Positions 18,830 to 43,242 of a stretch of 64,000 nucleotides of DNA are shown piece after piece. A model generated the notes under the pieces. The model did not search any database and was not told where the DNA came from. It worked only from the letters and a program-made list of their open reading frames with translations. The stretch's first letter is position 1. The number at the start of each line of letters is the position of its first letter. The position numbers were made by a program, and so were the translations under genes. The DNA is from Periplaneta americana (Eukaryota > Arthropoda > Insecta > Blattodea > Blattidae): positions 2,531,501 through 2,595,500 of the forward strand of contig NW_027185502.1 of NCBI RefSeq assembly GCF_040183065.1, read 5' to 3'.

Positions 18830-21290
18830 CTGGATATAATTAATGTCTCTTCTCCTATTTAACAGATATTCATGAAACTTTGTATAGTAGTTACATGTAG
18901 TATATTTGTTTTGTATATAAACTTTGATAACGTTTTTATAAGGGAAACTACCCCTTATAGGGTGCATGTAGGGAAAATTAATAACTTTTCTCCTATGTAA
19001 CAGATTTTCATAAAAACTTTGTGTAATAGTTTCGAGTAGTATATTTGTTTTGTATACAAACTCTGATTATGTTGGTACAAGGGGAAGTACTCCTTACAGA
19101 GGGTGTATTTAGAGAAAAATTAATAACTTTTCTCCTATTTAACAGATTTTCATAAATATTTGTGCAATAGTTTCGGGTAGTATATTTGTTTTATATTTGA
19201 AAAGAAGAAGGAGAAGACTAACTGTAGTAACTTTCGAGGAATATCACTTTTGTTGCCGTTGTACAAAATTTTGTCGAATATTCTTTTGAGAAGATAAACT
19301 CCATATGTAGATGAAATTATTGGGGATCATCAGTGTGGTTTTAGGCGTAATAGATCACCTATTGACCAGATATTTTGTATTCGACAGATAATGGAGAAAA
19401 AATGAGAGTATAAGGGTACAGTGCATCAGTTATTCATAGATTTCAAAAAGGCATATGACTAGGTTAAGAGAGAAGATTTATATAATATTCTTATTGAATT
19501 TAGTATTCCCAAGAAACTTGTTCGATTAATTAAAATGTGTCTCAGTGAAACTTACAGCAGAGTTTGTATAGATCAGTTTCTGTCAGATGCGCTTCCAATT
19601 CACTGTGGGCTAAAGCAAGGAGATGCACTATCACTTTACTTTTTAACTTTGCTCTAGAGTATGCCATTAGGAAAGTCCAGGATAACAGAGAGGGTTTGGA
19701 ATTGAACGGGTTATATCAGCTGCTTGTCTATGTGGATGACGTTAATATGTTAGGAGAAAATCCACAAACGATTAGGGAAAACACGGGAATTTTACTTGAA
19801 GCAAGAAAAGATATAGGTTTGGAAGTAAATTACGAAAAGACAAAGTATATGATTATGTCTCGTGACGAGAACATTGTAGGAAATGGAAATATAAAAATTG
19901 GAAATTTATCTTTTGAAGAGGAGGAGAAGTTCAAATATCTTGGAGCAACAGTAACAAATATAAATTATACTCGGGAGGAAATTAAACACAGAATAAATAT
20001 GGGAAATGGCTGTTATTATTCGGTTGAGAAGCTCTTATCATCCAGTCTGCTGTCAAAAAGTCTGAAAGTTAGAATTTATAAAACAGTTATATTATCGGTT
20101 GTTCTTTATGGTTGTGAAACTTGGACTCTCACTTTGAGAGAGGAACATAGGTTAAGGGTATTTGAGAATAAGGTGCTTAGGAAAATGTTTGGGGCTAAGA
20201 GGGATGAAGTTACAGGAGAATGGAGAAAGTTACACAACACAGAACTGCACGCATTGCATTCTTCACCTGACATAATTAGGAACATTAAATCCAGACGTTT
20301 GAGATGGGCAGGGCATGTAGCACGTATGGGCGAATCCAGAAATGCATTAGAGTGTTAGTAGGAGACCGGAGGGAAAAAGACCTTTAGGGAGACCGAGACG
20401 TAGATGGGAGGATAATATTAAAATGGATTTGAGGGAGGTGGGATATGATGATAGAGAATGGATTAATCTTGCTCAGGATAGGGACCAATGGCGGGCTTAT
20501 GTGAGGGCGGCAATGAACCTCCGGGTTCCTTAAAAGCCAGTAAGTAGTAAGTAAGTAGTATATTTGTTTTATATACAAACTGAATACGTTGGTAGATGGG
20601 AAACTACACCTTAAGGGGGTGTATTTAGAGAAAAATTAATAACTTTTCTTCTATCTAACAGATTTTCATGAAAAGTTGTACAGTAGTTATAGGTTGTATA
20701 TTGGTTTTGTATACAAACTCCGATTATGCTTGTATAAAGGAAACTACCCTTTATAGGGGCTGAATTTATAGAAAAATTAACAACTACTCGTATTATTAAT
20801 TTTTCTCCATTTTAACAGATTTTCATTAAAAACTTTGTACAGTAGTTACAGGTAGTATATTTGTTTTGTACAGCAACTCTTGTTACGTTTGAGGGAAACT
20901 ACCCCTTATAAGGGACGCATTTAGAGGAAATTAATAACGTTTCTTCTATCTAACAGATTTTCGTTAAAATTTACACAGTAGTTATAGGCAGTATATTTGT
21001 TTTATATACAAACTCTAACTATACTTATGTAAAAGAAACTGTCTCATTGCAGGGGTGAATTTATATAAAATTAGTACCTTTTCTCATACGAAACAGATTT
21101 TCATCAAAATTGTACGTTAGTTAAGGGTAACATATTTGTTTTGTATACAAGCTCTAATTATATTTGTGTAAAGCAAACTACCCCATTATAGGGGTGAAAT
21201 TAGATAAATTTAATAAGTTTCCTTCTATCTATCAGATTATGATCAAACTTTGTACAGTAGTTAGAGGTAAAATATTTATTTTGTAACAAG
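18830..21290. repeat. Tandem array, ~138-bp monomer, interrupted by a LINE
   Basis: Each monomer has TTAATAACTTTTCTCCTATT, AACAGATTTTCAT, TAGTATATTTGTTTTGTATA and GGGAAACTACCCCTTATAGG in the same order. The AACAGAT mark recurs near 18862, 19000, 19141, 20659, 20815, 20951 and 21092, with a decayed copy at 21232, about 135-156 bp apart. That is roughly eight copies, three before and five after the LINE. No conserved protein frame is visible. Confidence 0.85.
19197..20558 (+). pseudogene. LINE reverse transcriptase fragment in the tandem array
   Basis: A 5'-truncated LINE encodes NFRGISLL, HQCGFRRNRS, QLFIDFKKAYD and GLKQGDALS, then an intact-looking stretch from 19564 with YVDDVNMLG (catalytic box), [17 protein letters not shown] and [15 protein letters not shown]. 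In-frame stops occur near 19405, 19459 and 20358. The 3' end carries TAAG repeats. The host repeat sequence TATATTTGTTTTATAT lies directly on both sides (19181-19196 and 20559-20574), an exact target duplication of at least 16 bp. Confidence 0.85.
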
Positions 21291-21469
21291 AGGCAAAAGT
21301 TAGTGGAATAGGCTTTATGGCAGCTGACATGTACGCTCTTTTTATTTTGTGGCACGTTTCGGTGTAGTAATTGTAATTTCCTTGACAAAATTAGCAGTAT
21401 CTCTCTTTCCCTGATCTGGCAAGCTTATCTGTGTAAGAAAGAGAAGTTACTCCTTTTTTGTGACTGCAG

Positions 21470-21718
21470 TGTATGTGGTAATTTAACGACGTTGTATCAA
21501 ATACTAAGTAATTTAGCGTCGATGGGATTGGTGGTAGCGAGATGTTATTTGACGAGATGAGGCCGAGGATTCGCCATAGATTACCTGACATTCGCCTTAC
21601 GGTTGAAAAATCTCCGAAAAAATCCAACCAGGTAATCAGTCCAAGCGGAAATCGAACCCACGCCCAAGTGCAACTCCAGATCAACAGGCCAGCACCTCAG
21701 TCGACTGACGCCGGTGGC
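21470..21718 (-). mobile_element. tRNA-derived SINE, family B
   Basis: It shares TAATTTAGCGTCGATGGGAT, GAGATGAGGCCGAGGATTCG and AATCCAACCAGGTAATCAG with the copy at 63298. The tRNA-like head on the minus strand covers 21718-21650, with box B-like GGGTTCGATTTCC. It lies just beyond the tandem array, inside the TAA-flanked unit. Confidence 0.75.
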
Positions 21719-22215
21719 CTGCAATATGTTCCTAGCTTTCCTTCTCTCAGACCTTTCAGAAGCTTCAGAAAAAGGTTTCCTAGGTCTGCACCATCTGTCA
21801 CTTTTTCCAACAGATGATCGAATGATAACCCTGACATTCTGAAATAGTGAAGAAAATTATCTCCATAGGCACGAAGCTCGTGAAAAATACAGTGAAATTG
21901 GCCATACTGCGCTCATTGAATGAGAATCCGATGTATCCTATATTTTCTATGTTTAACACGTATTTTCCTAGGACGGAGAAGAAATAATAAAAGTAGTTCT
22001 TCCTCGACGTGCATTATTATAATGCGAGTGAAAATGACACACCTTTTGCAGTTCGACTGCCGCCAGAACCGACGACACACAACGCCCGTATCGACTGTAG
22101 AGTCGCTCATGTCAACTGCGTCTGCCGTCGAAGAACCGCTCATGTCGGCGGCAAACTGACTGCTTTTTGCAGTCGACCTTGGCGGCTAAAAGTCGCTCGT
22201 GTGTAAGGGCCCTAA

Positions 22216-22628
22216 GGAACGAGCAAGGGATAAACACTTAGCTCAGTTGCCAATTCTTGAAGTTATTGTAATATTTCATTTCTGCCACGTGCCTAAGACT
22301 TGAGGAGAAGATGGGAATTTACCAATTTCTGGAAGAAAGGCCGTCATGTTTTGGAGCAAGATATCCCTCATCATTATTAAAATCTAAAAAGCGTCACATT
22401 CCAGTACAATGCCCCGAAATTTTCACATGTTATGCATCGTGTGAATATTGGATGAAAGAGTTATAAGAGTTATAGTGACAAAATTTTCTCTGAAGAACTT
22501 TTAATTGCACAACTGAACAACACTGCACAACACAGCATGTCTTAGTAGTCTACTGTAGTGTAACGTTTATTGTTATAATTGCAACTAACAAACAATAAAA
22601 TTACAAGAAATGGATAAGAAATAAAGAA
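22216..22628. other. Non-coding DNA
   Basis: I see no gene and no repeat with a second copy in the window. Confidence 0.4.
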
Positions 22629-22800
22629 AACTGAGCGACTTGGCTCAAACGGTAGTGTTTGAAACTAGTATTCGGAAGGCCCCGGGTTCAAATCCCGTGC
22701 TCAGTCAATCGTTTTTCAAGGTTTCCCTCCGTCACGAAGGCACATGCCAGATTGGAAATTTACATAGGCCTGCCATGATTCATGATCTCTTTAATCACTA
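22629..22800 (+). mobile_element. tRNA-derived SINE, family D
   Basis: The head CTGAGCGACTTGGCTCAAAC has an A box, and CCCGGGTTCAAATCCCGTGC holds a consensus B box within a good T-arm hairpin. Unrelated sequence (TTCAAGGTTTCCCTCCGTCA) follows. The anticodon region and acceptor stem do not fold as a tRNA, so I call it SINE-derived rather than a tRNA gene. Confidence 0.6.
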
Positions 22801-22839
22801 ATATTATAAACATTAAAACAAAATGTAACAGTTACATGA

Positions 22840-23810
22840 ACATAAGCCATCTATAACACACGACAATAAAAACAGATACAGAACAAAAATCCACGAGCTA
22901 CTGATATAGCCAAACATCCTACACACACGATATGACGAAATCAACACAGGCGTAAAACAGGATTGCGGCCTTTCCCACCTTCTGTTTATAATACACAAGA
23001 ATGAAATTCTTCAGGAATGGAGACAAATGCGACATGATCAGTTGCAGATAAACAGAAATTTAAAAATAGGGTCATTGATATTTGCAGTATTTGCAGATGA
23101 CCTGGTTTCAATAGCACCTACAGAAAATGATTTACAGTATTCAGTACATAATTTAAATATAATTGCAAAACAATATAACATGGAAATAAATACAGAACAA
23201 AAGCGACAAAGTTATGGCCTTCTGGGAAAAATATTCTCTTCGACGTAAAATACGTTTAGAAGGCAAAATTTTAGAAAGACTTAAGGATTTTACATATCTT
23301 GGCTACAAATTAAAATTTGATATTGATTTGAATATGACCAAAATTGTAAAATACTCCAAAACTATGGGAATAATCAACGGGGTAATGAAACCTTCCATGG
23401 CACAGGAAATCACTAGAATACGTCTTTAATGAACCTTGTGCTCTGATATAGCAGTGAGGCATGGGTATTAAGGCGGGTGGCTGAAAGCAGAATAACAGTA
23501 ACTAAATAAGGCTTTTGCGAAGAACAGCCTGATATACAAAATGGAACCATAAATGCAACCACGAAGTATGGAATAACTCGGTCTGGAATCAGTATTCCAT
23601 TTCATACAGAAATATCAGAACTGGATGAGCCATTTGCGATGAATGAGATCCACAGAATACGAAAAGCTATACTTCACTATCAGTCCCATGGGAAGAGATC
23701 TCTGAGACGTCCCATAGAGTTGAAGAGGAAATTCCTCTTTATTATGAGATCGTAATAGGCCACATGGCCTAATAGGCTAAATGTTTGGATGAATATGATG
23801 ATGATGAAGT
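22840..23810 (+). pseudogene. LINE reverse transcriptase fragment, copy A
   Basis: Reads through IFAVFADDLVSIAPTENDLQ (FADD catalytic box), then a frameshift near 23220 and ILERLKDFTYLGYKL plus MGIINGVMKPSMAQEITRIR. It decays further into sequence matching the end of the same LINE family (RSLRRP). The part from 23249 onward is repeated at 28260-28760, so this fragment predates the duplication. Confidence 0.75.
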
Positions 23811-23916
23811 CAGGTAGGTAGTGGTGTTTGGGAATGTTTCTTGTTGTACAGTAACTAAATGGAACAAAAGCATAGTGTGGTGGTTTTGGTTTTTCCACAC
23901 CCACATTGCGTATGCA

Positions 23917-24453
23917 GAAATAACTAAAATGCTCTCTCAATTAATATCACTCAATAAAAGAATTGTATTCCATTGGATACCATCCCATTGTGGAATCCTG
24001 AGAAACGAGAATGCGGATGCTTTAGCAAAGAAGGGCAGCACTGCTACTTACAGACCTGTTACTAAATCTACGTATTACTCTGTAAAAAGATTTATTAAAT
24101 CTACATACTTAGACTTCAACAAAAAAAATTTGATAACACAATCCCAAGGGAAAAAATGGAACTCTCTGCATCAAAATCCACAGTTAATTCCCGATTTACC
24201 ACGAAAATCGTCTGTAGCTGCATTTAGATTGGCAACAGGCCATGATTGTTTGGCCAAACACCTGCATAGAATTGGAATATATCAGTCCCCTAACTGCCCA
24301 TTGTGCAACTCGACCCAAGAAATGGATTCGGAACACCTCAAAAATCTGTGCTTCAGTGGCTGGTCATGATAATATCTTTGAAAAATATTGGAGTGCAAAA
24401 GGTCAAATGACTTTATTGTCAAACGCCTGGCATTAGAAAACAACAACAACAAC
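23917..24453 (+). mobile_element. 5'-truncated LINE with RNase H domain
   Basis: Encodes EITKMLSQLISLNKRIVFHW and IPSHCGILRNENADALAKKG, the C-terminal end of a LINE RNase H, then VAAFRLATGHDCLAKHLHRI and a CPLC zinc-type motif. It ends in an (AAC)n tail. The 12-mer ATTGCGTATGCA / ATTGCATATGCA flanks it (23905-23916, 24454-24465), and copy B keeps the empty site at 28899-28910. A longer minus-strand relative is at 38941-39900. Confidence 0.85.
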
Positions 24454-24846
24454 ATTGCATATGCAAGGAATTTCCCGCCATCGGGCACAGTTAAGAGAAA
24501 AAATATTATGTGATTACAAATAATTTAGAATATTGTTGTTTTCACAAAATATTGTAATTTGGGGCTTCATGGCACAAAAATCTAAAAATACGTTACATTG
24601 CATGCTCATTAGTGTATTATATACAAGATCGCCTGAAATATGCAAAAATAGTATGTACAATTAATTTGTAATATTCGTCATTACAATCGTTCAAAATGTG
24701 TATAAATTGATTTTGTATTACTTCCAAATGAACAGCAAAAATATGCAGTTTCATACGAATCCTCGTCCTATTAATAAGCCATTCACTAAAAGCCAGTGAA
24801 TACATTGACACATGCTTAACGATCAAGTTTATTTTGCTTCTTGCAG

Positions 24847-25058
24847 AGGTGAAGGAAGCCACGGATGACTATCGAAATATCCCCATCCTGAAGGCCATAC
24901 CATCCATGCCGAATCTCATGGCAGCTCGCATGCCAACACCATCATTGGAACACCTACCAGCAGAAGAAGAAGAAGCTGAGGAAAGAACAACGAAGATTGG
25001 CTGCTGGTCCTTTTTAAGAAATGTATTTCGTAGACGTCGTCTTTTTAGGCGTAAGTAA
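24847..25058 (+). CDS. Short paralogous exon, acidic then arginine-rich end
   Basis: After the acceptor TTTTGCTTCTTGCAG the only open frame uses two bases to finish a codon (phase 1). It reads VKEATDDYRNIPILKAIPSM, a Pro/Met/Ala stretch MPNLMAARMPTPS, an acidic block HLPAEEEEAEER and a cationic segment GCWSFLRNVFRRRRLFRRK before TAA at 25056. The acidic block and the LRNVFR...RLF-RK segment are shared with 29262-33478. Two readings fit. It may be a terminal exon with a +9 amphipathic tail. Or it may be an internal phase 1-1 exon ending at 25050, because GTAAGT (a perfect donor) overlaps the stop in both copies. I do not recognise the family. Confidence 0.65.
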
Positions 25059-25829
25059 ATATAAATTTTATGTCTCAGAGCTATTTTCAGATTGATCGCC
25101 CTCGGCGTCTTTCTTTGTTTCTGTTACAGTAATAGTACTTACATTATGTACAGTTGTCAAAAGAAAAAGTGGCCGCACTCCTGAAACAAAGTTCCCTTCG
25201 GGTATCTTCGCTACAATTCGGAGACAGGCGATGTTGCATGTTGCTGGACCACGTTGCCTGATATCTACAGTTATAATTGAAGTATTCTGTGTGTTATTCG
25301 ATAGCGTAATGGTAGCGTTCAGGCTTCTTATTCGTGAGATCCTGAGTTCAACTACAGCCTCGTGCTTTTTATGTTCTTTGTTGTTCTGTTCTCGAGAGAG
25401 ACAAATTATATATAATGGCTCCTTTCTCTTTTACGATTATTTTAGTAATTAACATCAGGTTCATTAATATATTATGCCATGACTTTATCATTATGATATT
25501 GTGGCTGCAAATGGAAAGAAAAAAGATTTTATTCTCAATAAAGATATCTTTCGTGGCATAAACAAAACAAATTTACTGGCGTCGGCCTTAAAACACTTAA
25601 ACGATTAAGCGTTCAAAAAACAAAACAAAAAGCCACAATTCAGTATTTAGTCTATCTTCCTCTTATCTCGATCATCTTGCAGTCGAGTGGGCATGGAATC
25701 GACTAGTCTTTGCAAATAGCGACTGTTCTTAGATACGATATTCCAGGCATTCTGAACATACATAAGTGTTCTGTCCATGGGCAGGTCTTTCATTGCAAAC
25801 CCAGCAATCTCCAATATTTCCTATTTTCT

Positions 25830-26460
25830 GCCTACCTCTTAGTCTCCGCATATGATCCACATATCCTAATGCCGTCTATTATTCTTTTCAACCAGAGACC
25901 CAACCAATTACTTTTTATCTTTCTAATCAGTTTCAGAATCATTCTTTCTTCACTCACTTTTTCAAACACAATTTTATTTCTTATTCTGTCTGTCCACTTC
26001 ACACGCACCATTCTTCTCCAAATCCGCATTTCAAATGCTTCAATTCGTTTCTCTTCATTTCGTCGTAATGTCCATGTTCCTTCCCCATACAATGCCACAC
26101 TCCACACAAAGCACTTCACTAGTCTCTTCCTTAGTTCTTTTTCCAGAGGTCCGCAGAAGATCCTTCTTCTTCTATTAAAAGCTTCCTTTGTTCATGTTTG
26201 CAGTTTTTCTTGGGAAGGATAGGCCTAAATGCGGTAACATCCCGTTGCTTTCCGCACACCACTATCTCTTTCGCATCTTATTAAATTCCAGGGGGTCCAA
26301 GCGTGGAGATGAGGAGAGTGGATTTGACTAATTGAGCCCTCAGGACTTCACCGAAAGTCACGGCAAGGGTTAAATATTAATTCTATCAGGATGTTTGACC
26401 CGATCAGAGACCGGGAAATCTCAATTAACCTTTGCCCCCCGCATTCTGGACTAGCTTCTA
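25830..26460 (-). pseudogene. LINE fragment: 5' block joined to RT C-terminus
   Basis: Minus-strand 26460-26230 matches the 16536-16730 block. It runs into SVALYGEGTWTLRRNEEKRI EAFEMRIWRRM, the post-RT region of LINEs with a YGxETWTL motif. The endonuclease and most of the RT are missing between them, so this is an internally deleted or rearranged copy. Confidence 0.65.
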
Positions 26461-26524
26461 CGAATCATCAGAAAATCTTAGAGTGTGATTGGGCCAATTT
26501 TTCCCAAAAATGTTTCCACACTTT

Positions 26525-26600
26525 TGCCCACGTAGCTCAGCGGACGCACGTCGAAATTTAGATGTCAATGTCTCAGGTTCAATTCCTCGTTACTCCTTTT
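26525..26600 (+). other. tRNA-like SINE head
   Basis: CCCACGTAGCTCAGCGGACG resembles a box A region, and CAGGTTCAATTCCTCG a box B. There is no matching acceptor stem, so it is not a tRNA gene. Confidence 0.45.
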
Positions 26601-26679
26601 CATTTTATTGTATTTCAAGATAGTATAATGTAATAATACAAAAATAAAAACTAATATCAGTATTATGCAACTGGATTTT

Positions 26680-27750
26680 TCCAAACCTAATATTAAATTT
26701 ATGTTATTTATATCGCTAAAGAATGATTACAATATAAATAACTTGAATATTTTTATATAGTATCACTAAAGAACGATAACAGAATATAAATGATAATTAT
26801 CGGTTTGTTTAATTAATATAAGATATTATATAATACGTATTTAATTATCTAAATAAAATAACCTATTTTACAAAAAAAAGATGGTTATTTGTGTTATAAT
26901 ACTTACTTACATAAAATACAGATTATTTATATTGCGAAAGAACAATAACAATATAAATAACTCGAATATTATTTTATAATGCTAATGAAGGAAAACAGAA
27001 TATAAATGATAACTTGAATATTATTTATATCGCTAAAGAACGATAACAGAATATAAAAAATGTGAATATTATTCATATCGGAATTTCACAGATTTATTAC
27101 AGATGTATTTAAGAAATTGTAGAAGAATAGTAATTGGTAACAGTGTCCTATTTGTTCTTCTTGGAGCCAAATTTGCAACTTTTAAAAGTGTGGTTACTAT
27201 GTCGAAGTGTATGTGTTGCAATGGATGCTTGATGTCGTCGCAATGTCGTAATTATAGTTTGATTGTGTTTGTGTGAGTATTGTGTATTAATTTATAATGT
27301 ATGGTACGGAAAGCTGCATATTTGTGTTATAGAAGTGTTACGTATGTGAGTTGTTAATGTTTTTGTATGTTTCAAATTGATAACTGATATTTGTTTTGCA
27401 ATCGCAATGCCTACCTTACGGATTGTTTATATTTTGTTTACATCGCGTAAGCTAATTTAATTTTCTTTTCATTTCTCTTTATGTTTATCTTTTTGTGTAT
27501 AAAACTATAGCCCTAACATACATATGTAAAATAGGGCTAAACCCCATTGGAGATACAATAATAATAATTATTATTCATATCGTTATAAAAGGATATCAGA
27601 ATACAAATGATGACTTTAATTTTATTCATATCTCTAAAGAACGATAACAAAATATAAATAACGTGATATCCATAAAGAACGATAACTGGATATAAATGAT
27701 AATTTGAATATCATTTACATCGCTAAAGAACGATTAAAAAATAAAATGAA
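26680..27750. repeat. AT-rich minisatellite, ~50-bp unit, interrupted
   Basis: The phrase TCGCTAAAGAACGATAACAG followed by AATATAAATGATAACTTGAA recurs about ten times with much variation. The array is broken at about 27100-27570 by other DNA that includes a Penelope-like remnant. Confidence 0.7.
27160..27430 (-). pseudogene. Decayed Penelope-like RT C-terminus
   Basis: The block TGTACGGAAAGCTGCAT at about 27303 matches the same block at 7409 in the Penelope RT, and the minus strand reads a YAAFRTIHYKLI-like motif. Stops are frequent. The call rests on this short similarity. Confidence 0.4.
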
Positions 27751-28261
27751 AACTTGAAGAAGGCCCGAACCCACAACCTTTGAATCATTAAACAAGCACT
27801 CTACCGCTGGTCTACGAGGCGCAGATATGGAACACTTTCATAGTTCCGGAACTGCTTGTACAAGCACATGCATCGTGTAACATCGCCGCGACCCGAAGTG
27901 GACTTTGAAAATATTCGCTGTTCACGAGTGCGGCCACTTTTTTTTTTGACAGCTGTACACTCCTTAAAGTTACCAACAATTAAAACTTTCATTTTGTTTG
28001 GCACTCTTTTTCTTTATGTGCTAAAAATATATCTGAATCTCACACTCGGTCCCTTCGTTTCACTCAATGTGGCACAATTAAGCACGTGTGGTTGTAATTT
28101 TCATTTAATTCTTTCGTTTCCGAACAAGTACATCATGCTTAGAAATATTTGGAGCTCTATATTGTGAATTAATCATATTTTTATTGCTAAGGAACAGGAA
28201 AGGTATATTCTTTCTTCTGTTCTTTTTTTTTTCACACTTTCGTCGCAACAAATCTCTCGTA

Positions 28262-28760
28262 AAATGTTTAGAAGGCAAATTTTTAGAAAGACTTATTGAT
28301 TTTACATATCTTGGCTAGAAATTAATATTTGATTTGACTATGAGCAAAATTGTAAAATACTCCAAAATTATGGGAATAATCAACAGGATAATGCAACCTT
28401 CCATTTTACGAAAGTCCCTATAACACGCCTTTAATAAACCTTGTACACTGTTATGGTAGTGAAGCATGAACATTAAGGCGGGTGGATGAAAGCAGAATAA
28501 GAATAACGATATTAGATTTATGCGAAGAACAGCTTGCTGTACAAAATGGAACCACAAACACAACGACGAAGTATGAAAGAGCTTGATCTGGAATCAGTAT
28601 TCCATTTCATACAGAAATATCAGAACAGTTGGAAAGGCATTTGCGACGTATGAGATCCCACAGAATCCCGAAAGCTATACTTCACTACAAGTCTATGGGA
28701 AGAGATCTCTGGGACAACCCAAAAAGAGGGGGGAATTCATCTTTATTGTGAGATCGTAAT
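28262..28760 (+). pseudogene. LINE reverse transcriptase fragment, copy B
   Basis: The duplicated counterpart of 23255-23760, with more stops. It ends in AGATCTCTGGGACAACCC, equivalent to 23696 onward. Confidence 0.7.
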
Positions 28761-29261
28761 AGGCCACACGGTCTAATAGGCTATTTGTAAAGCTGCTGAT
28801 GATGATGATTAATTCAGGTAGGTAGAGGTGTTTGGGAATGCTTCTTATTGTGCAGTAACAAAAGCATAGTGTGGTTGTTTGGATTTTTCCACACTCACAT
28901 TGCATATTCAATGAATTTCCCACCACCGAGTACAGTTAAGATAAAAATATTGTGATAAACAATTCAGAATATTAAAAAAAATATGCGAATTTGGGGCTTT
29001 GTGCCACAAAATACTAAAAATATTGCTTGCTCATTAGTCTATTATGTACAAGAACGCCTGAAATATGCAAAAATATGCACAATTAACTTGGAATATTCGT
29101 CATTACAGTAGTTCAAAATGTGTATAAAATGATTTTGTATGGCTTCCAAATGGACAGTAAAACTGCAATTGCATACGAATCGTGGCCCTATTAATGTTAT
29201 CACTGAAAGCCAGTGAATGCAATGACACATGCTTAACGATCAAGTTTTTTTTATGTTGCAG

Positions 29262-32200
29262 GGTTCTCGAAAGCCAGGCCAGCTCCCGTACCAGATCCCA
29301 TATTACCTCCCATGCAAGCTCCCACTGCTAGATCCCATGCTATTACCCATGTCACGGAAGTTAGTTCGCATGACAGCTTTCATGGCAGATCCCTTACAAG
29401 GTCTCAAGCGAGCTCCCATGCGAAATCCCTTGCCAGATGCCATGCTAGTACACCCGTGCCAGCTTCCGTGTCAGATTCCTTGCAATCTACCATACGAAAT
29501 CCTATGCAAGCACTTATTTCCGGCTCTCTTCCCAGTGATCCCAAGGTAGATCCCTTATCAGCTCCCACGTCAGATTCAATACCAGCTCCCATTGCTAGTT
29601 CCCATGCCTTATCCCATGCCAGTGATCCCATGGCAGTTCCCATGCCTGATTCCATGCCACGTCACATTAGCAGCTCCCATGCCACATATATTGCGAGGAC
29701 CCATGCCAGATCCCTTACAAGGTCTCATGCGAGCTCTCATGCCAGCGATTCCATGTCAGCTACCGTACTAGATCTCATGTCAGACCCCCTGCCAGGTCCC
29801 ATGCCAGCCCCCCTGCCAGGTCCCATGCCAACCCGCCTGAGGGTTGACATTGAAATTGCCATGCTTCGTGCCAGTATAAGTGCCTCCATAGGAGCCTTTG
29901 ATGTCAGGCTAGGTCCCATGCCAGCTCGCATTCCTGCTGACATGCTAGCTGACATCCTAGCCCTCATGCCATCTCCCATGCCAGATCCCCTGCCAGGTTC
30001 CGTGCCAGCCCCCCTGCAAGTTGACATTCAAATTGTCACGCTATATGCCATGATAAGTCCCTGTATAGGTGCCTTAGATGTAATGCTAGGTCCCAGGCCA
30101 GCTCCCATTCCAGCTGACATGCCACCTGCCATACTAGTTACCATGCTAGATAATATACCTCCAGACATGCTGAATGCCATGCCAGCTGACATACTAGCTG
30201 CCGTTCTAGTTAACATGCCAGCCTCGATCCTAGCTGCCGTGGCAGCTCCCATGCTAGACCCCATGCCAGCTAACATACCAGATTCTATGCCAGCTCCCGC
30301 GCCAGCCCCTATGCCAGCTCACATGCTAGCCCTCCTGCCAGGTCCCATTCCAGCCCCCATGCCAGCCCTCCTGCCAGGTACCATGCCAGCCCCTATGCCA
30401 GTCCCCATGCCTGCTCCCATGCCAGCTATCATGCCAGATCCTATGCCAGCTCCCGCGCCAGACTCTATGCGAGCTCACATGCTAGCCCTCCTGCCAGGTT
30501 CCATGCCAGCCCCCATGCTAGCTTCCATGCCAGCTCCCATGCCAGCTATCATGCCAGATCCTATGCCAGGTCCCGCGCCAGCCCCTATGCCAGCTCACAT
30601 ACTAGCCCTCCTGCCAGGTCCCATGCCAGCTTCCACGCCAGCTGTCATGCCAACTCCCACACCATTCCCCATGCCAGAACCCATGCCTTCCCCCATGCCA
30701 GGTTGCACGCCAGACCCCATGACAGCTATCATGCCAGATCCCATGCCTGCCCCCATGCCAGCTCCCACGCCAGCCTCTATGCCAGGCCCCATGCCAGCCA
30801 ATCTGTCACTTGATATTCAATTTGCCATGCTTCGTGCCAGGATACGTGCCTGTACAAGTGCCTTAGATGTCTTGCGAGGTCCCAAGCCAGCCCCCCTTCC
30901 AGCTCCCATGCCAGCCCCCCTGCCAGCTCCCATGCCAGCCACCATGGCAGCACCCCTGCCAAGACCCATGCCAGCCTACCTGGTAAGTCCCATGCCAGGC
31001 ACCCTACCAGTTGACATTCAATTTGCCATGCTTCGTGCCAGGATACGTGCCTGTATAGGTGCCTTAGATATCATGCTAGGTCCAATATTAGCTCCCATTC
31101 CAGCAAACATGCCAGCCCCCATTCAAGCTCCTATATCAGGTCCCATGCCAGATAACAAACCACCAGCAATGCTGGATGCCATGCCAGCTCACATACCAGC
31201 TGCCGTTCTAGTTAACATGCCAGCCTCGATCCTAGCTGCCGTGCCAGCTTCCACGCCAGGTCCCATGGCAGATCCCATGCTAGCCGCTATGCCAGCTCTG
31301 CCAGATCCCATGCTAGCCACCATGCCAGCTTTCATGCCATATCGCATGCTACCCACCATGCCAGGTCTCATGCCAGATCCCATGCCTGCCCCCATGCCAG
31401 CTCCCACGCCAGCCTCTATGCCATCCCCCATGTCAGCCCATATGCCAGCCAATCTGCCACTTGACATTCAATTTGCCATCCTTCGTTCCAGGATAAGTGC
31501 CTGTATAAGTGCCTTAGATGTAATGCGAGGTCCCAAGGCAGCCCCCCTTCCAGCTCCCATGCCAGCACCCCTGCCAGCTCCCATGCCAGCCCCCATGGCA
31601 ACACCCCTGCCAAGACCCATGCCAGCCCACCTGGTAAGTCCCATGCCAGGCACCCTGCCAGTTGACATTCAATTTGCCATGCTTCGTGCCAGGATACGTG
31701 CATGTATAGGTGCCTTAGATATCATGCTAGGTCCCATATCAGCTCCCATTCCAGCTAACATGCCAGCCCCCATGGTAGCTTCCTTGCCAGCCCCCGTTCA
31801 AGCTCCTATGTCAGCTCCCATGTCTGATAACATACCACCAGCAATGCTGGATGCTATGCCAGCTCCAGCTCACATACCAGCTGCCGTTCTAGTTAACATG
31901 CCTGCGTCGATCCTAACTGCCGTGCCAGCTTCCACGCCAGCTCCCATGCCAGCTCCCCTGCCAGGTCCCACATCAGCCCCCATGCCAGCTCCCACGCCAG
32001 ACCCCATGCCAGTTCCAATACCTGACCCTATGCCAGCTCCCGCGCCAGACCCCATGCCAGTTCCCATACTAGACCCCATGCCAGGTCGCACGCCAGACCT
32101 CATGCCAGCCCTCATATCAGTTGCCATGTCAGCTCCCATGGCAGGCCCCCTGCCAGGTCTCATGTCAGCCCCCCTGCCAATTGACATTCAAATTGTCATG

Positions 32201-33478
32201 CTTCGTGCGAGGATAAGTGCTTGTATAGCTGCCCTAGATGTCATGCGAGGTCCTATGCTAGCTCCCCTCCCAGCTCCCATGCCAGACCTCCTGCCAGTTG
32301 ACATTCTAATTGCCATGCTTCGTGATAGGGTAACTGCCTGTATAGGTGCCTTAGATGTCATGCGAGGTCCCATGCCAGCTCCCATTCCATCTGACATGCC
32401 AGCCCCCATGGCACCCTCCATGCCGGATCCTATGCCAGCCCCCATGCCAGCTCCCATGCTTGCTCCCATTCCAGCTCCCATGGCATCTCGCATACCAGCC
32501 CCCTTGTCAGCTCCTATGCTAGCTGCCCCGCCAAGTGCCATGCCAGCCTTCAGCTTCCATGCCATCCCCCATGCCAGCTCTAATGCCAGCCCCCATGTCA
32601 GGTTTCATGCCATCCCCCATCTCACCCCCATGCCAACCCCTATTCCAGCTGTTATACCAGCCCCCATGACAGCCCCCACGCCAGCTCTCATGCCAGGCCC
32701 AATCTTAGCTGCCGTGCGAGCTGCCATGCCTGCTCTCATGCCAGATCCCATGCCAGGCCCAATCCTAGCTGCCGTGCGAGCTGCCATGCCTGCTCTCATG
32801 CCAGCCCCCACGCCACCTTCCATGCCAGGCCCAAACCTAGCTGCCGTGCGAGCTGCCATGCCTGCTCTCATGCCAGCCCCCACGCGAGCTTCCATGCCAG
32901 GCCCAATCTTAGCTGCCGTGCGAGCTGCCATGCCTGCTGTCATGCCAGCTCCCATGCCAGGCCCAATCCTAGCTGCCGTGCGAGCTGCCATGCCTGCTCT
33001 CATGCCAGCCCCCACGCCACCTTCCATGCCAGGCCCAAACCTAGCTGCCGTGCGAGCTGCTATGCCTGCTCTCATGCCGGCCCCCACGCGAGCTCCCATG
33101 CCAGGCCCAATCCTAGCTGCCGTGCGAGCTGCCATGCCTGCACTCATGCCACCCCCCACGCCAGCTACCATGCCAGGCCCAATCCTAACTGCCGTGCGAG
33201 CTGCCATGCCTGCTCTCATGCCAGTCCCCACGCCAGCTCCCATGCCAGGCCCAATCCTAGCTGCCGTGCGAGCTGCCATGCCTGGTCTCTTGCCAACTCC
33301 CATATTAGCCCCCACGCCAGCTGCCATGCCAGGCCCAATCCTAGCTGCCGTGCGAGCTGCCATGCCAGGCCATCTACCAGCAGAAGAAGAAGCTGAGGAA
33401 AGAAGAATGATGGGTTGCCGCTGGCCCTCTTTAAGAAATGTATTTCGTGGGATTCGTCGTCTCTTTACCCGTAAGTAG
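29262..33478 (+). CDS. Giant Pro/Met/Ala repeat exon paralogous to 24847-25058
   Basis: After acceptor TTTTTTTTATGTTGCAG the phase-1 frame stays open for 1,404 codons. Most of it is built from variants of the 12-bp unit CCCATGCCAGCT (PMPA). Eight copies of a roughly 30-residue module, DIQFAMLRARIRACIGALDV-like, begin at 29843, 30020, 30809, 31010, 31460, 31661, 32180 and 32297, all in one frame. Ten copies of GPILAAVRAAMPALMPAP follow (about 32690-33370). It closes with HLPAEEEAEERRMMGCRWPS and LRNVFRGIRRLFTRK, matching the end of the short paralog. A GTAAGT donor overlaps the stop at 33471, leaving an exactly in-frame 4,209-bp exon if used. Antisense frames are also long because the unit is a multiple of three. 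Function unknown. Confidence 0.6.
30809..32110 (+). repeat. 651-bp higher-order duplication within the giant exon
   Basis: DIQ modules at 30809/31010 and 31460/31661 form two pairs with identical 201-bp spacing, 651 bp apart. The sequence between them is also shared (for example the MPAHLVSPMPGTLPVDIQF stretch), with scattered substitutions. A segment of about 217 codons was therefore duplicated after the modules had formed. Confidence 0.75.
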
Positions 33479-33712
33479 TTACCAATTTTATGTCTTAAAT
33501 AGCGATTTTCAGATAGATCACCCTCTGCTTGTTCCTACTTGTTTCCCTCACCACTTGTTTATAGTTAAGCAATTCTGTTAGAGTAATTTCACATTATGTG
33601 CAGTCCTTAATGTTACCAACTATTAAAACATGCATTTTGTTTGGCGGTCTTTTTCTTTATGTGCTAAAATATGTCTGAATCTCATGCTCCGTCCCTTGTT
33701 TCCACCCAGTGC

Positions 33713-34199
33713 ACAGTGATATTAATAATATATCAGGTCTACTAGCTTACCTTGGGACAGTGTTTCTCAACTGATGGCTCGCGTCCCCCTGGGTACAGTG
33801 AAGTGGTAGGCCCAGTTTTCTTTGTCCATAATAAAGGCGCTTAATTTAACACTTTATATATTATCGGAAGTTAAGACACTAAAAAATGGTGTTTTAGGTT
33901 CCTGAAAAAGCTCTGAAAAATGGTATTTTAGGTTCCTAAAAAGGCACTAAAAATTGTATTCCAGACACCTAAAAGACACTAAAAATAAAAATTTAGGGAA
34001 AATTAACCACTGAAAATTTATTCCACACACAATAATTAATTTGGGCTATTTCCTTGCTCGATGTTTTAATTAAATGCCAGTATTCGCTTTTGTGTTCTTT
34101 ATGTAGGTATACACAGCAAATTAACATAACACTGCATGACTACTTAAAAGAATTAGATAAGTGGTATTTGTCCTACAGAATGTTTAATTTAGTGTGCAC
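33713..34199. other. hAT terminal and subterminal sequence
   Basis: CAGTGTTTCTCAACTGATGG at 33758 resembles a hAT terminal repeat. Short repeats of TTTTAGGTTCCTAAAAAGGC follow (33890-33980). AATAAA occurs at about 33829. No gene is seen. Confidence 0.45.
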
Positions 34200-34756
34200 T
34201 TATTCGTCTTCATGTTCATAATTTGAATGACAGTACACAACAAACAACTTCTCAAGATTAAAACACTTGCTCTTGTGACGTCTATTGGACAAAATCTGTT
34301 TATATGCCGAAAAGGATCTCTCAACATGCACTGAAGTGACTGGAACGTGCTTATACAGTACCGTCCTGGCTACATTAAACCCCTCAGGAAGCTCACCACT
34401 TAAAACTTTATACACAGAATTAATGGTTTCATATCCAGGATTTCTTGAAAAAAAAAAACTTTTTAGCTTCTCACATATTTGAGCAGCATACTTGCCAGGA
34501 GCTACACATAATCTATCTTTGCATTCAATAACAGAGACGTGGATTCACAAAATGACAGACTGCTGGATTCCATTTGTTGCATGGTATCTGCTACTAAAGT
34601 GAAATGCGCATCGATATATGCTAAGTCTTCTTTAAGTCCTTTTTCTTGAAACACACATTGAGCTTCTTTGATTGACAGAGAATCATTCTCTGAAAATTCC
34701 TTAACAATTAGTGCTATTTGTTCAAAGTTATTCGCATAGTATTTTACTTCTCTCAA
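34200..34756 (-). pseudogene. hAT transposase C-terminal fragment
   Basis: Minus-strand frames read FSENDSLSIKEAQCVFQE and then, after a frame change near 34450-34500, ELPEGFNVARTVLYKHVPVT followed by SVHVERSFSAYKQILSNRRH. The last motif is the hAT-type C-terminal dimerisation signature. About 185 residues are left and the frame is broken. It belongs to a different hAT group from the element at 817. Confidence 0.7.
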
Positions 34757-35559
34757 CCATGTCCCTCACTTCGTAACAATAGGCTCAGGGGGCAGGGGAG
34801 TGTCAGATAACTTCTCTCGGAATACAAAGATAATCCTAGACTGTAAGTAGATACGTCGTGTATGTTATGCAGGAGAAGGGTAGATAATAAAGTAAACCGT
34901 TATCTGAACTCAAGACAGTGACTGTCGGTATGAATGATGGGGCTAGTTAGGTAGAGGGTCTTAAGGATTCCATTACAAATCTTTGTATACTATAAGAACT
35001 ATCAGTTTTTTTTTTTCAGTTTCATGGAAAAAAAAATAATAATGAGTGCTGTTAGCTATATCTCCCTATACAGAAAAAAGAAAAAAGAACAAAAATAAAA
35101 ACAAAAAAGGCACAAACTGTAAAAAAGGCAAATATATGCAATATAAAACTTCACCACAAGATTTAATTTTTCGTGATTCGTATACATAAATTAACAGCCT
35201 TAAAAAAACGTACATTAAGAAAATGGGCATTTTCCTAAACTTCCGATCCCTAATTATTAGGGTTCATTGAGTTAATATGTCCCTTATGTGTTAGAAACAT
35301 TGTACGATTATGTCCATGACTGTTTAATAGTAACGTTTTAGTGGTTGTCAGATATTAAAGTAACTTCACTGTTTATTGTATTTATTATGGGGCACTTAAT
35401 AAATAAGAAATCTAAGTGAGCACGCACACAATGCAGTTTTAGAAACACTTTAATAGGGTAAAGAATGTTCATTGATCACTGTCACTAGTATTGGTATTGT
35501 CCTCCTCTCCGAAAGTTGTTACTGTGCTTGTAGTAGGCCTACTTATGAGGCATCCCTTG
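34757..35559. other. AT-rich non-coding DNA
   Basis: I see no gene. Short A-rich runs at 35060-35130 may be hAT subterminal repeat remains. Confidence 0.35.
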
Positions 35560-35870
35560 TTATTGTGTTTCAGAACTCAATAGCTTTATGACTTCCACAG
35601 GTAGGATCCTTTTTTTGTCTTTTGTTCGGTACTGTTGGCGGAGAGATGTTATAAAAGGATCAGAGATGGCAAGGAGTCGATTGAATACATCACGATTAGT
35701 GGCCTCTCTTGAAATATTTCTGGCATGATGTTCACGAAATTGCTTAAGATGTTTATTCCTTGCTTCTTGGGCTTCTTCCGACATTTGTCCAATTGGAAGT
35801 AATGCCTCGGAAATAATAACAGAACCATGAATGAGTATTTCATGTACAGTGACGGGCTTGGGATACCAAA
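35560..35870 (-). pseudogene. Transposon-type protein fragment, unnamed family
   Basis: Reads VTVHEILIHGSVIISEALLP, IGQMSEEAQEARNKHLKQFR and EHHARNISREATNRDVFNRL. I recall the order LIHG...LLPIG-x-SEEA-x-E-x-RNK from proteins scattered across insect genomes, consistent with a transposon, but cannot name the superfamily. Its partner fragment is at 36927-37355 on the same strand. Confidence 0.45.
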
Positions 35871-35875
35871 AGTAC

Positions 35876-35985
<110 letters not shown>

Positions 35986-36240
35986 CCGTGATGCTACAGC
36001 CCATGAAGGGCCTAGCACGATGGTTAGCATGATGATCCCCCAGCCGTTATAGCTGGCTTTCGCAACTGGATTTCGCTACCTATCGTACATCACAATGCTG
36101 GATGGGCACTGGTCCCATACACTGGCCGAAATTTCATGAGAAAATTTCTTCCCCCATGAGGACTCGAACCAGCGCGAATTCCATAATGTGGGTCCTAGGC
36201 AGGATGCCTTAGACCACGGCGCCATGGCATGGGACATACC
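35986..36240 (-). mobile_element. tRNA-derived SINE, family E
   Basis: On the minus strand from 36240 the copy starts CCATGGCGCCGTGGTCTAAG (box A) and has CTGGTTCGAGTCCTCATGGG (box B). A unique body follows, and it ends at the AAT/ATT microsatellite, which looks like its tail. Confidence 0.65.
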
Positions 36241-36360
36241 AAGAGTACAGTGAGACAAATAATCTGGCAGTCTCCCTTGCATATTTTAAAATTCATTCGT
36301 GTTTATTTCAAATCCACAGGATATAGTTTTAAGTATAATTACACATCTGTGGATGAGATG

Positions 36361-36552
36361 CCTGTCAATGCCAGTTATTTTTGCACTTACTCCTTCATTA
36401 TCGTCTGGCAGTGTTGCCATCGTCAATGTCAATGCCAGTTATTTGTGCACTTACTCCTTCATTATCGTCTGGCAGTGTTGCCATCGTCAATGTCAATGCC
36501 AGTTATTTGTGCACTTACTCCTTCATTATCGTCTGGCAGTGTTGCCATCGTT
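36361..36552. repeat. 64-bp tandem repeat, three copies
   Basis: TCAATGCCAGTTATTTGTGC starts at 36365, 36429 and 36493, exactly 64 bp apart, with very few differences. Because 64 is not a multiple of three, the frame rotates between copies, which argues against coding. Confidence 0.9.
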
Positions 36553-36926
36553 TGTGTTTCAGCTTCCTCCTGTCTTGGGTTGGTCTACCAAGAGCCCTAA
36601 TTCAGAACGGAATTTACTTTGGTTTTCTTTCTTGCAAGTGGCCACACCTTCTTTCAACTTCTTGCCTCTCACTTGCGAAACTTAAATGCTAAACAGTAGG
36701 AAAGATGCCAGCAATGCAAAGTTGACAAGCCGAATTTAAAAGTAGATGTGTCTTCTTGCCTATGCCATTTCATTTCTTTCGGTGTTGCCCTGTAGATGTA
36801 ACACCTTTGGATTGATAAAGTTGACATCACAATGTTATAAATTTTGCCATCTATCATGGTTAGTACACTTTCATGGTTAATTTCTAGCTCTTTTCCAAAT
36901 AAATTAATGTGAGTGGAATTGAGAGC

Positions 36927-37400
36927 TCATATCTGTTCTTCAATGTAAGCTTCTTCTTCCTTAGAAAGTTTGGCAGTCTCTTTTAGAAATTGTACCCATA
37001 TGGGGTGACAGTACAAAGTAGAAGACAGTCGACGATTTTGCCAATCAATAATAATTTTTTCTCCATTTTCGTTTGAAGAATAAAGCTGCGAGGGAACCAT
37101 AGACGTGAAGAAAATATCGGAGTCAGAAAGTCCCTCCGCCTTTTGTTTGTAGAGCAAATGTCCTCTACTGACATCACAGCCCCACTTTGAAAATAATGTC
37201 ATAGATAGTTTTTCGTCTTTCGTATTCTCAATTACTGGTTCTTGTGACCTCAGAATTCGGCTAGCAGTATGATTCAATAGATTTAGAAGTTTTACTTCTG
37301 TAAGGAATTCTGTGACCGTTACAGATTCAGGATAACTTTTCTGTCTTTCTAGCAATTTAATTTGATCGTAGGAGTCTTCTATACCGATTTTTGTAAAAGA
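36927..37400 (-). pseudogene. Transposon-type protein fragment, N-terminal partner
   Basis: Reads TVTEFLTEVKLLNLLNHTAS, LSDSDIFFTSMVPSQLYSSN, SSTLYCHPIWVQFLKETAKL and EEEAYIEEQI. This is the region I associate with the LIHG/LLPIG protein at 35560 in insect genomes. No catalytic motif is recognised and the frame is broken. Confidence 0.45.
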
Positions 37401-37831
37401 AACTGCAATACTACGTCTTTTTGTTTTTCACTACCGCTTTTTTCCTTCTGTAAATCATCTAACAATTCCTTTCTTTTGCAACGGTACTCCATTCTGAAAC
37501 CAAAATAAATGACGAAAAATTTGTTAATTTTAACTTTTCTAACTATTTGATAGCCAAATTGAACATAGTTTTGCTTTAGAGAAGAAATTAACTAATACTG
37601 AGAATATTTCTATTTTAGACGATTAATTTGAAATGCACCAATAAATATATTTATCTAATCTTATCAAAAGGGGCAAGTATGGGTAGTTTTACCTTTCGAG
37701 ATCATTAAGTAAACATGTGACACTACACATTGGTCAAGGAAATAACACGGGGCAACGTGAGGCAATTTTTGTTAGTCTGCATGAAGACCGAACTTAAGGA
37801 CTCACAAAATGAAATTGTACATAATATGGTT

Positions 37832-38124
37832 GGCGGCCAGGTAGCTCAGTTGGTAGAGCAACTGGCTACGGACTGGAAAGTCCGGGGTTCGATCCCAGAT
37901 GGTGACAGGATTTTTTCTCATTGCCAAACTTTCAGAACGGTCCCAAGGTTCACTCAGCCTCCTATAAAATTGAGTACTGGGTCTTTCCCGGGGGTAAAAG
38001 GCGGTCAGAGCGTGGTGCCGACCACACCACCTCATTCTAGTGCCGAGGTCATGGAAAGCATGGGGCTCTACCTCCATGCCCCCGAAGTGCCTTCATGGCA
38101 TGTTACAGGGATACCTTTTTTTTT
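37832..38124 (+). mobile_element. tRNA-derived SINE, family C, with 13-bp target duplication
   Basis: The head reads GGTAGCTCAGTTGGTAGAGC (box A) and CCGGGGTTCGATCCCAGATG (box B). An unrelated body follows, ending ATACC and nine T. ACATAATATGGTT flanks it exactly on both sides (37819-37831, 38125-38137). This intact duplication suggests a recent insertion. A 3' fragment of the same family is at 18410-18520. Confidence 0.9.
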
Positions 38125-38137
38125 ACATAATATGGTT

Positions 38138-38682
38138 ACATGTCCTTAGCCAAGCATAATATACTTATCATTATAATAATAACAACGTACTCTTAATTCA
38201 AAAACATAGCTCTAACAATCTATAATAACACTTACCTGAAAATCAACCATAGAAGCACAAAAAATAATACCGGTAACTGAAGTTCTGATTGAAAAACACA
38301 AAAACGACACTTGATGCACTGGCTTCAAAGGTTCGAATACAACTGCATAGAATTAGACCTGCTACGAGGGTGGCTGTTTTATGACCGCCAGACCTTGGAG
38401 ATAGTTGGGGTATATTGTAAACACCATAAAACTAAAAATGAAAAAATTATTTTTGGCCAGCTTTTGAGTCTCTTGGAAACACTGTGCAATGTGGCGACAA
38501 TTAAGCATTGTGGTCACATTTTCTATTTATTTTATTTCTTTTTAGTAGGTTATTTTGCGATCCTGTTTCAACATCTTAGGTTATTTAGTCTCTAAATGAG
38601 GTGAAGGTGATAACGCCAATGAAATGAGCCTGGCACCGATAGTTATCCAGCAATTGCTCACTTTCCCTCTAATTACTTATCT
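38138..38682. other. Non-coding DNA
   Basis: A short open frame at 38311-38595 shows no motif I recognise. Nothing else is seen. Confidence 0.35.
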
Positions 38683-38845
38683 TTTATTATAAACCATGAA
38701 GTTATTACGACATAAATATGGAATTTATTATTAGTGACGCTACAAGATCTCGTACAATTAGTTAACACAAAATGAACACTTTCAGGAATATCTGGTTTTC
38801 TAAAAAATATTCTTTTAAATATACATATAAGCATGGATCAATAAA
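38683..38845. repeat. Inverted repeat, left arm
   Basis: Reads GTTAACACAAAATGAACACT and TCAGGAATATCTGGTTTTCT, the reverse complement (with some decay) of 42150-42345. It brackets the Penelope-derived region. Confidence 0.75.
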
Positions 38846-38940
38846 ACAACCACAATGAAAATTTAACTATTGGATTGTTAAAATGTGTTACAAATGTAAC
38901 ATCAATAGGTTATAGAGAATAACCAAAGTCCATATTATAA

Positions 38941-39900: not shown

Positions 39901-39939
39901 TGAACTGAACTTTGATGATTAGATGTTTGATGTATAGTA

Positions 39940-43132: not shown

Positions 43133-43222
<90 letters not shown>

Positions 43223-43242
43223 ATAATAATAATAATAATAAT

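Follow-up and report, generated by a model that had tools for sequence, protein, structure and literature searches.

The 64,000-nucleotide stretch of Periplaneta americana DNA analysed here (the window) contains a member of a large, little-studied gene family, so far seen only in this species, in which one exon has grown to hundreds or more than 1,000 codons at several separate places. We consider it probable that this is a modular family whose members start in a LINE, continue through an exon X and through phase 1-1 exons that carry a stop in their splice donor, and have spread both by block duplication and by the copying of messages. In the 3.23 Gb genome, the family of the exon pair found in the window occupies at least 54 dispersed places.

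Exon A (24847..25050, forward strand) is 204 nt long, follows the acceptor CTTCTTGCAG with AGG at 24847, and encodes a peptide (VKEATDDY...LPAEEEEAEERTTKIGCWSFLRNVFRRRRLFR) with an acidic block and a basic tail. Exon B (29262..33470, forward strand; acceptor TATGTTGCAG followed by GGT at 29262) is 4,209 nt long, and in it a 12-bp-based Pro/Ala/Met array precedes the acidic block and basic tail, the frame being open as far as a stop at 33476-33478. That both exons are in phase 1-1 and that each has an acceptor, an acidic block and a basic tail can be read in the sequence, as originally predicted. The tandem duplication predicted to enclose them is likewise present, and includes the regions upstream of A and B (23244..29261, forward strand; repeat families D3, D5, D7, D8 and D9), with a spacing of 5,004-5,012 between copies and of 4,422 adjoining the exons; the conserved upstream stretch attributed to both exons is identical at 312 of 370 aligned sites. 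Exon A contains three 12-bp repeat units at 24905-24940, and the suggestion that B's repeat grew from this short linker is supported: the three consecutive 12-mers score 28/36 against the exon B unit CATGCCAGCTCC, a score matched by 0 of 2,000 shuffles, and share their codon phase with 207 of the 221 exon B 12-mers. The same exon has been expanded with other repeat units at C4 (a 1,034-codon frame) and C8 (691 codons). Peptide families named for the gene are PAPM, AIEAGKQDLMPDPM and LPAEEEAEER. In the 21 best-matching loci, 26 copies of exon A (the window's own copy counted, and the acceptor having been a search criterion) have lengths of 198, 201 or 204, all multiples of 3, and GTAAGT is in place after all 26.

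Both exons end in C followed by GTAAGTAA/G, a splice donor containing a stop (the donors being GTAAGTAA and GTAAGTAG). The donor after exon A, GTAAGTAAA, occupies 25051..25059 on the forward strand and reads R-K-stop if unspliced; that after exon B, GTAAGTAGT, occupies 33471..33479 on the same strand. Consequently, of the exon ends first proposed, the cationic tail stands, whereas 25050 and 33470 are the last bases of the exons themselves, with a donor following; a fixed Arg-Lys-stop C-terminus is replaced by a donor with a stop inside, read as such only when the donor is unused, and each exon copy can therefore be internal or last. The built-in stop is kept after 25 of the 26 exon A copies, the C8 donor GTAAGAAG is without it, and the exon B donor is left unspliced at the ends of the C14 array units, the C3 array units and the C2 copy. 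Such an end would act as a switch, splicing continuing the chain and its omission terminating it at Arg-Lys-stop. The LINE-A-B chain of the window is in frame for 1,539 codons, and it is possible that an unused donor after A would yield RRK-stop after 136 codons and a used one the chain to 1,539; products of very different size, which the original prediction considered possible from alternative exons, could thus arise through donor use after A.

The first exon of this chain lies at 16537..16985 (forward strand), with an ATG at 16787 and a phase 1 end at its donor (TACCAG followed by GTAAGT). Its homology begins where the LINE piece of the array copies has its 5' start, and P0026, which starts in the same way, carries the endonuclease domain PF03372. 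Judged by sequence, exon 1 and its start codon are LINE-derived, because intron-less copies have a LINE 5' exon fused at splice-site positions to X, A and B. Exon X has no match in the window: bases 27,487-28,894 of the C15 piece have no counterpart in the window copy, and the site of the missing ~1.4 kb (17064..17068, forward strand) holds the start of X in the C15 copy (acceptor CTTTTAG followed by CTGGACATG). A possible 5' exon, E1 (14912..15031, forward strand; TTTTCTAG followed by GAACAACAGG at one end and AACAAG followed by GTAAGG at the other), is co-duplicated with exon A. It has at least 40 matches (40 of 388 candidates scored), 30 of them with a same-strand exon A 7.2-16.3 kb downstream, on many contigs, and forms part of the predicted proteins P0004 and P0017. 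E1 is absent from the intron-less copies read, and its phase-1 frame, read by eye, meets a stop, and so E1 has no place in the 1-1 chain.

Positions 1..62572 of the window belong to an interspersed duplication colinear with C15:134,706,800-134,766,024, which measures ~76 kb here, with its start ~13.4 kb to the left of the window, against ~59 kb on C15, the ~76-kb colinearity resting on comparison with this one C15 copy; most long non-repeat blocks are 93-97% identical. Together with the E1-A pairs, this colinearity presents the interspersed blocks with a common core gene that characterise core duplicons. A transposon with terminal repeats was considered as carrier of the block and set aside, no terminal repeat being recognised by eye at the edges of the one pair inspected. 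The contig of the window is 4.1 Mb long and presumably among the unplaced contigs, for which the assembly paper notes poor coverage by gut RNA in general. The original prediction did not include the first exon of LINE origin, exon X, the copies throughout the genome, the arrays of intron-less units or the expansions at other loci.

Counted by X, 84 intron-less units make up four tandem arrays, distributed over two chromosomes, and a separate intron-less copy lies on C2 outside the arrays. LINE, X, A and B are joined at splice-site positions in C14 and C3 units, and both sides of every junction (LINE donor, X acceptor, A donor and acceptor, B acceptor) are found in unspliced relatives; the X donor, for example, reads GACGAGACAG followed by GTACAG at C3:51.5 Mb, as against GACGAGACGG joined to AGTTGAAGG in the array. 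As in processed retrocopies, introns are missing exactly at the splice junctions of LINE with X, X with A and A with B; reverse transcription is the presumed route. The C2 copy, which is frameshifted, has LINE-X-A and then several B-type exons in series. At exon A, 73 of the 84 array units have a frame open for 1,000 codons or more, one of the 73 having a TAG inside the matched exon, and at least three matches with stops occur among the exon A matches listed. The 3' side of the C14 unit (one unit read) continues into the downstream genomic sequence of the dispersed block, whereas that of the C3 unit does not, and a simple poly(A)-tailed retrocopy therefore does not explain the C14 units. An unsystematic look noticed no poly(A) tail or target-site duplication at intron-less units. 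Outside the arrays, X stands directly beside A at five further places: C3:80.43-80.46 Mb (three places), C3:82.37 Mb (one) and C2 (one).

The long open frame predicted for exon B is confirmed, with 0 stops in frame versus 71 and 38 in the other forward frames, and five further long frames (all six having been picked as long ones) also contain none, versus 49 and 33 for C15 B, 42 and 53 for the C3 unit, 48 and 49 for the C14 unit, 98 and 18 at C4, and 107 and 5 at C8. Between C3 and C14, 465 substitutions would be expected to produce 10.5 stops if neutral and none is seen (P=2.7e-5); between window B and C15 B only 3.3 are expected (P=0.04), and the stop-producing fraction in B's own frame is low (1.1%). 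Exon X is under purifying selection (pN/pS 0.33, Fisher p=1.5e-5, five disjoint pairs; 0.74 over all pairs), with broken frames in 2 of 14 copies. A and B exhibit no clear amino-acid constraint: pN/pS is near or above 1 in most comparisons (1.37 for exon A, pooled over 43 non-independent pairs), constraint on the A/B terminal module is not significant (0.65, p=0.11), and substitutions fall about equally on the three positions of the codon, the third having the fewest. In pairs with alignable flanks, exon A and its flanks diverge at about equal rates; an earlier impression that the flanks were about four to six times more diverged than the exon is taken as an artefact, since non-homologous flanks had been aligned.

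The family profile has matches in 18 NCBI proteins of P. americana, including 5 with isoform labels, and the family proteins are listed as 'uncharacterized' or 'hypothetical'. P0002, P0004, P0005 and P0013 have the A-type tail, and P0013 also has its own Pro/Ala expansion ahead of it. The family has no Pfam match reaching the cut-off and no PDB match, which, together with pN/pS near or above 1, agrees with the original description of an undescribed, fast-evolving gene. No annotated protein of ~1,500 aa is among the matches listed, and a whole-ORF protein search with the C3 reading returned nothing at E<=0.001 among the matches listed; a phage relative was dismissed, its two matches (E=4) being due to chance. 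The product is likely to be a protein rich in spacer and largely disordered, with an acidic and then a Cys/basic tail at its end, and the long forms are presumably translated. T-Q-T occurs in 14 of the 18 proteins, as D-A-A-T-Q-T in 11 of those 14, and resembles the LC8 dynein-light-chain motif, which PMC3078936 describes as TQT-anchored with Lys at -3 and an acid at +2. Our leading guess, by virtue of this resemblance, is a multivalent LC8-bound scaffold where X is kept, although the -3 Lys and +2 acid are usually absent from the family sites; the window copy is without X.

Under the modular reading, transcription would most likely start at the 5' end of the LINE fragment, presumably from the LINE promoter, and the LINE start codon and first ~66 codons would form exon 1, with a donor just ahead of the LINE endonuclease part. 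Exon 1 would be spliced to X (not in the window copy, which is without X) and then to one or more tandem phase 1-1 exons, each typically ending in C followed by GTAAGTAR, an in-frame continuation if spliced and Arg-Lys-stop if not. Given a stop in each exon's donor, the last copy can serve as the C-terminus, and every additional copy makes the protein longer. The 12-bp unit would be prone to tandem growth, and the exon has been expanded independently at several loci; the locus would have spread through large interspersed duplications and its spliced messages been copied back and then amplified in tandem. A bolder version, which we put forward tentatively, is a self-lengthening gene: the LINE promoter and start codon would make copied-back messages working intron-less genes, giving scores of genes of more than 1,000 codons with the frame selected open and the amino acids almost free. 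With a symmetric exon bearing its own stop in the donor around a growth-prone 12-bp core, exon duplication and repeat expansion would both lengthen the protein and leave the frame intact.

Alternatively, the family may be a passenger of a duplication-prone, core-duplicon-like block, with A and B as neutral repeats of recent origin that stay open largely because the 12-bp unit happens to have no near-stop codons in their frame. The pN/pS values near 1, the similar rates across codon positions, the 1.1% stop-producing fraction and the 93-97% identity of most blocks would all be expected; however, stops are missing from 6 of 6 long frames (albeit picked as long) versus 5-107 in the other forward frames, their absence between C3 and C14 is hard to reconcile with neutrality, X is under purifying selection and splice signals are kept, and we regard this explanation as unlikely. 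The intron-less unit could instead be a composite, non-autonomous SVA-like retroelement amplified by LINE proteins, its frame incidental or selected for mobility. Such an element would suit a unit that begins at the LINE 5' end, exists in at least two different intron-less forms and has X beside A at five more places outside the arrays, yet the 84 units lie in four tandem arrays, the C14 unit read has a downstream genomic flank and the unsystematic look noticed neither target-site duplication nor poly(A) tail, which together make it quite improbable. As tandem duplicates of the same phase with similar acceptors, A and B might also be mutually exclusive exons, as the original prediction proposed. 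However, intron-less copies carry A joined to B, and the C2 copy has A and then B-type exons, so that A and B were used in series rather than as alternatives; we reject mutual exclusion for the loci that gave rise to the intron-less copies, where A and then B stood in one message, and consider it very improbable in general.

In mucin-type genes, a short repeat unit is expanded within one giant exon whose frame stays open. The cockroach exon is similar in this respect, and differs in its 1-1 phase, its stop in the donor, its occurrence as neighbouring short and giant copies and its independent expansions with different units. The primate core duplicon gene NPIP on LCR16a is described in PMC7419210 as lineage-specific, lying in interspersed blocks, and changing its exons and protein rapidly with an open frame, all of which the cockroach family appears to share; it differs in belonging to an insect, in its LINE-derived first exon, in one repeatedly expanded exon and in tandem arrays of intron-less copies. 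As regards the positive selection associated with core duplicons, exon A has a pN/pS of 1.37, a value pooled over 43 non-independent pairs. In SVA_F1 with MAST2 and in STK40-SVA, splicing fuses a host exon and a retroelement and the spliced chimera is amplified, according to PMC6139936. A spliced host-retroelement chimera seems to have been amplified here also, though with the LINE giving the 5' exon and start codon, host-like exons following and amplification mostly tandem.

No product of that size being among the protein matches listed in one search, our results hint that repeat exons of 1,000 codons can be missed by standard annotation. The family offers a natural case of new-gene growth, combining a LINE start, 1-1 modules, repeated expansions and copying at both the DNA and RNA level within a single recent assembly. 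Whether selection keeps a frame open while hardly constraining its residues becomes testable here, and the family could let cells use one set of parts for proteins that differ greatly in length.

In the window, exon A (24847-25050, + strand; 204 nt) and exon B (29262-33470, + strand; 4,209 nt) are both multiples of three in length, start and end in phase 1, and have AG and GTAAGT at their borders, with donor sequences reading C/GTAAGTAA after exon A and C/GTAAGTAG after exon B (slashes mark splice boundaries). The original prediction placed both exons inside a tandem duplication, which is borne out by sequence repeats, and gave them a common cationic end in RK; this end, with the stop after it, is present in the sequence but is read only if the donor remains unspliced. 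It also suggested that B had grown from a short linker still visible in A, and such growth is well supported, since the three 12-bp units of exon A match the unit of B in the same codon phase, at a score reached by none of 2,000 shuffles. Moreover, growth of this exon has occurred more than once and with differing units, because equivalent exons on two other contigs of the assembly (C4 and C8) and the annotated family protein P0013 each have their own expansion. At C4 the open frame spans 1,034 codons and the whole module is repeated about four times, and at C8 it spans 691 codons and a 69-bp unit is repeated 26 times at 98% (in both, a few tens of the codons counted belong to the upstream intron), while P0013 carries a Pro/Ala stretch at the equivalent position. 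Both the C4 and C8 exons terminate in the acidic and basic tail seen in A and B, followed by the donor GTAAGTAG at C4 and GTAAGAAG, without a built-in stop, at C8.

Because every joint is in phase 1, the combinations LINE-A-B (1,539 codons as read in the window), LINE-B (1,471 codons) and LINE-A (136 codons with the donor unspliced, by arithmetic from exon lengths) are all in frame. In two family proteins, P0020 and P0026, an opening like that of exon 1 leads on to a LINE-type endonuclease (PF03372 is present in P0026); exon 1 is thus the beginning of a LINE reading frame, its donor cutting just before the endonuclease part.

Stops are absent from frame 0 in all six long frames, a result that is partly one of choice because these frames were picked as already long; the other two forward frames contain 71 and 38 stops (window B), 49 and 33 (B on C15), 42 and 53 (C3), 48 and 49 (C14), 98 and 18 (C4), and 107 and 5 (C8). 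Between C3 and C14, 465 substitutions give a neutral expectation of 10.5 stops (P(0)=2.7e-5), and between window B and C15 B 3.3 stops are expected under neutrality (P=0.04 for none). Residues in these compared frames look free to change: rates at codon positions 1, 2 and 3 are 0.171, 0.150 and 0.141 for window B-C15 B, and 0.112, 0.119 and 0.094 for C3-C14. Among the 54 of 210 pairs whose flanks could be aligned, divergence is 3.1% in exon A and 2.6% and 2.9% in the flanks, and pN/pS of exon A is 1.37 over the 43 ungapped pairs. Exon X, which lies between the LINE exon and A in relatives, behaves differently in selection. Fourteen copies were read and two with broken frames (C1; C15 X1) dropped; in the remaining 12, pN/pS over all pairs is 0.74 and stops are absent where about 9 would be expected. 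Across five disjoint sister pairs, chosen from the tree after pairwise values had been seen, pN/pS falls to 0.33 (Fisher p=1.5e-5), and it is 0.31 over four disjoint pairs without arrays.

A search with exon X recovers 84 units in four arrays of intron-less copies (21 and 12 on C14, 30 and 21 on C3), and 73 of these units have an open frame 1,000 codons or longer at their exon A match (16/21 and 11/12 on C14, 26/30 and 20/21 on C3, one of the last 20 carrying a TAG within its matched exon). In both units read whole, one from C14 and one from C3, the LINE 5' piece runs straight into X, X into A and A into B, and the joints coincide with splice sites found in unspliced relatives: LINE donor TACCAG/GTAAGT and X acceptor TTTTAG/CTGGACATG; X donor GACGAGACAG/GTACAG (C3:51.5 Mb) and the exon A acceptor; A donor AGGC/GTAAGT and B acceptor TTGCAG/(A/G)GTTCTCG. 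The donor after B is retained in both, and the 3' side of the C14 unit runs into downstream genomic sequence; these units could have formed either by reverse transcription of a long message or through cDNA recombining with a locus. A separate copy on C2 has LINE-X-A followed by several B-type exons, is frameshifted and leaves its last donor unspliced, and match positions put X and A right next to each other at three places within C3:80.43-80.46 Mb and at C3:82.37 Mb. The two arrays on each of these chromosomes are opposite in orientation (C3: 43.2-43.6 Mb, +, and 46.0-46.2 Mb, -; C14: 54.96-55.15 Mb, +, and 66.28-66.43 Mb, -), resembling arms of a large inverted repeat.

The assembly examined comprises 3,231,669,367 bases in 91 contigs, and we take C21 (4.1 Mb), which holds the window at 2,531,501-2,595,500, to be one of its 74 unplaced contigs; these generally have poor gut RNA coverage, according to the available text of the assembly paper (PMC12774602). 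The exon A protein has at least 152 genomic matches (150 of 726 candidates scored), and at least 54 dispersed places are found among the matches listed, counting diverged ones, once the four big arrays are excluded and matches within 1 kb of each other are joined. E1, a possible 5' exon (14912-15031, +) 10 kb upstream of A, has at least 40 matches (40 of 388 candidates scored), and exon A lies downstream on the same strand at 30 of the 40 listed. C15 holds 11 of these 40 and 10 of the 54 listed exon A places, and contigs C18-C29 another 11 of the listed E1 matches. One C15 copy is colinear with that of the window (~76 kb here, ~59 kb on C15), at 93-97% identity in most long non-repeat blocks; its B exon measures 3,337 nt between acceptor and donor, lies within a 1,157-codon open frame and has the repeat arranged differently. 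The named family proteins found are from Periplaneta americana, and neither a first search of the protein collection nor a profile search scoring 8,000 candidates gave a named relative outside this species; ENA contigs of 1.1-1.5 kb provide 6 of 24 profile matches, the two read being LINE. P0006 lies on a 4,145,930-bp contig, equal in size to that of the window, but has no match beyond the LINE exon in the window or the 20 kb to its left.

Other sequence features occur in and near the block. An AGCAGC-type hexanucleotide array (46797-60267) extends over 13.5 kb, with stops in all six frames; its C15 counterpart spans just 741 bp by TRF, so that two blocks alike in other respects differ ~18-fold in the size of this array. 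Beside it lie pieces of a frame beginning MVYCCVPFCKSKSRGVAGISFHEFP (60264-62150, - strand), which resembles a THAP-domain/P-element transposase, and a piece left of the C15 block gives a weak TNP-like RNase H match, under its cut-off. A ~139-bp tandem repeat (D1, D2; 18837-21319), also in the C15 copy, is broken at 19549-20358 by an open frame resembling part of a LINE. Among the literature matches listed for core duplicons, retrogene arrays, MAST2-SVA, orphan proteins of cockroaches, tandem symmetric exons and LINE first-exon fusions, titles and abstract openings do not describe the family, and the words "tandem", "segmental" and "retrogene" were not found in the available main text of PMC12774602.

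Spacers of the tail exons are Pro/Ala/Met-rich or Ser/Pro/Ala/Arg-rich, and we expect them to be disordered; beyond them follow an acidic block and a Cys/basic end. Two annotated isoforms, P0005 and P0010, on a contig equal in size to C14, have the LINE-X part in common and then diverge, one into an A-type tail and the other into an unrelated end, a pattern to be expected of optional tail exons. A T-Q-T site in X occurs in 14 of 18 NCBI family proteins, and four such sites in P0016. The LC8 motif is given as [D/S]-K-x-[T/V/I]-Q-[T/V]-[D/E] in the available text of PMC3078936, and the X site is alike, but without the Lys of the motif and usually without its last acid. Our guess is that the family protein may be an LC8-bridged scaffold, a putative role that the copy in the window, without X, would lack.
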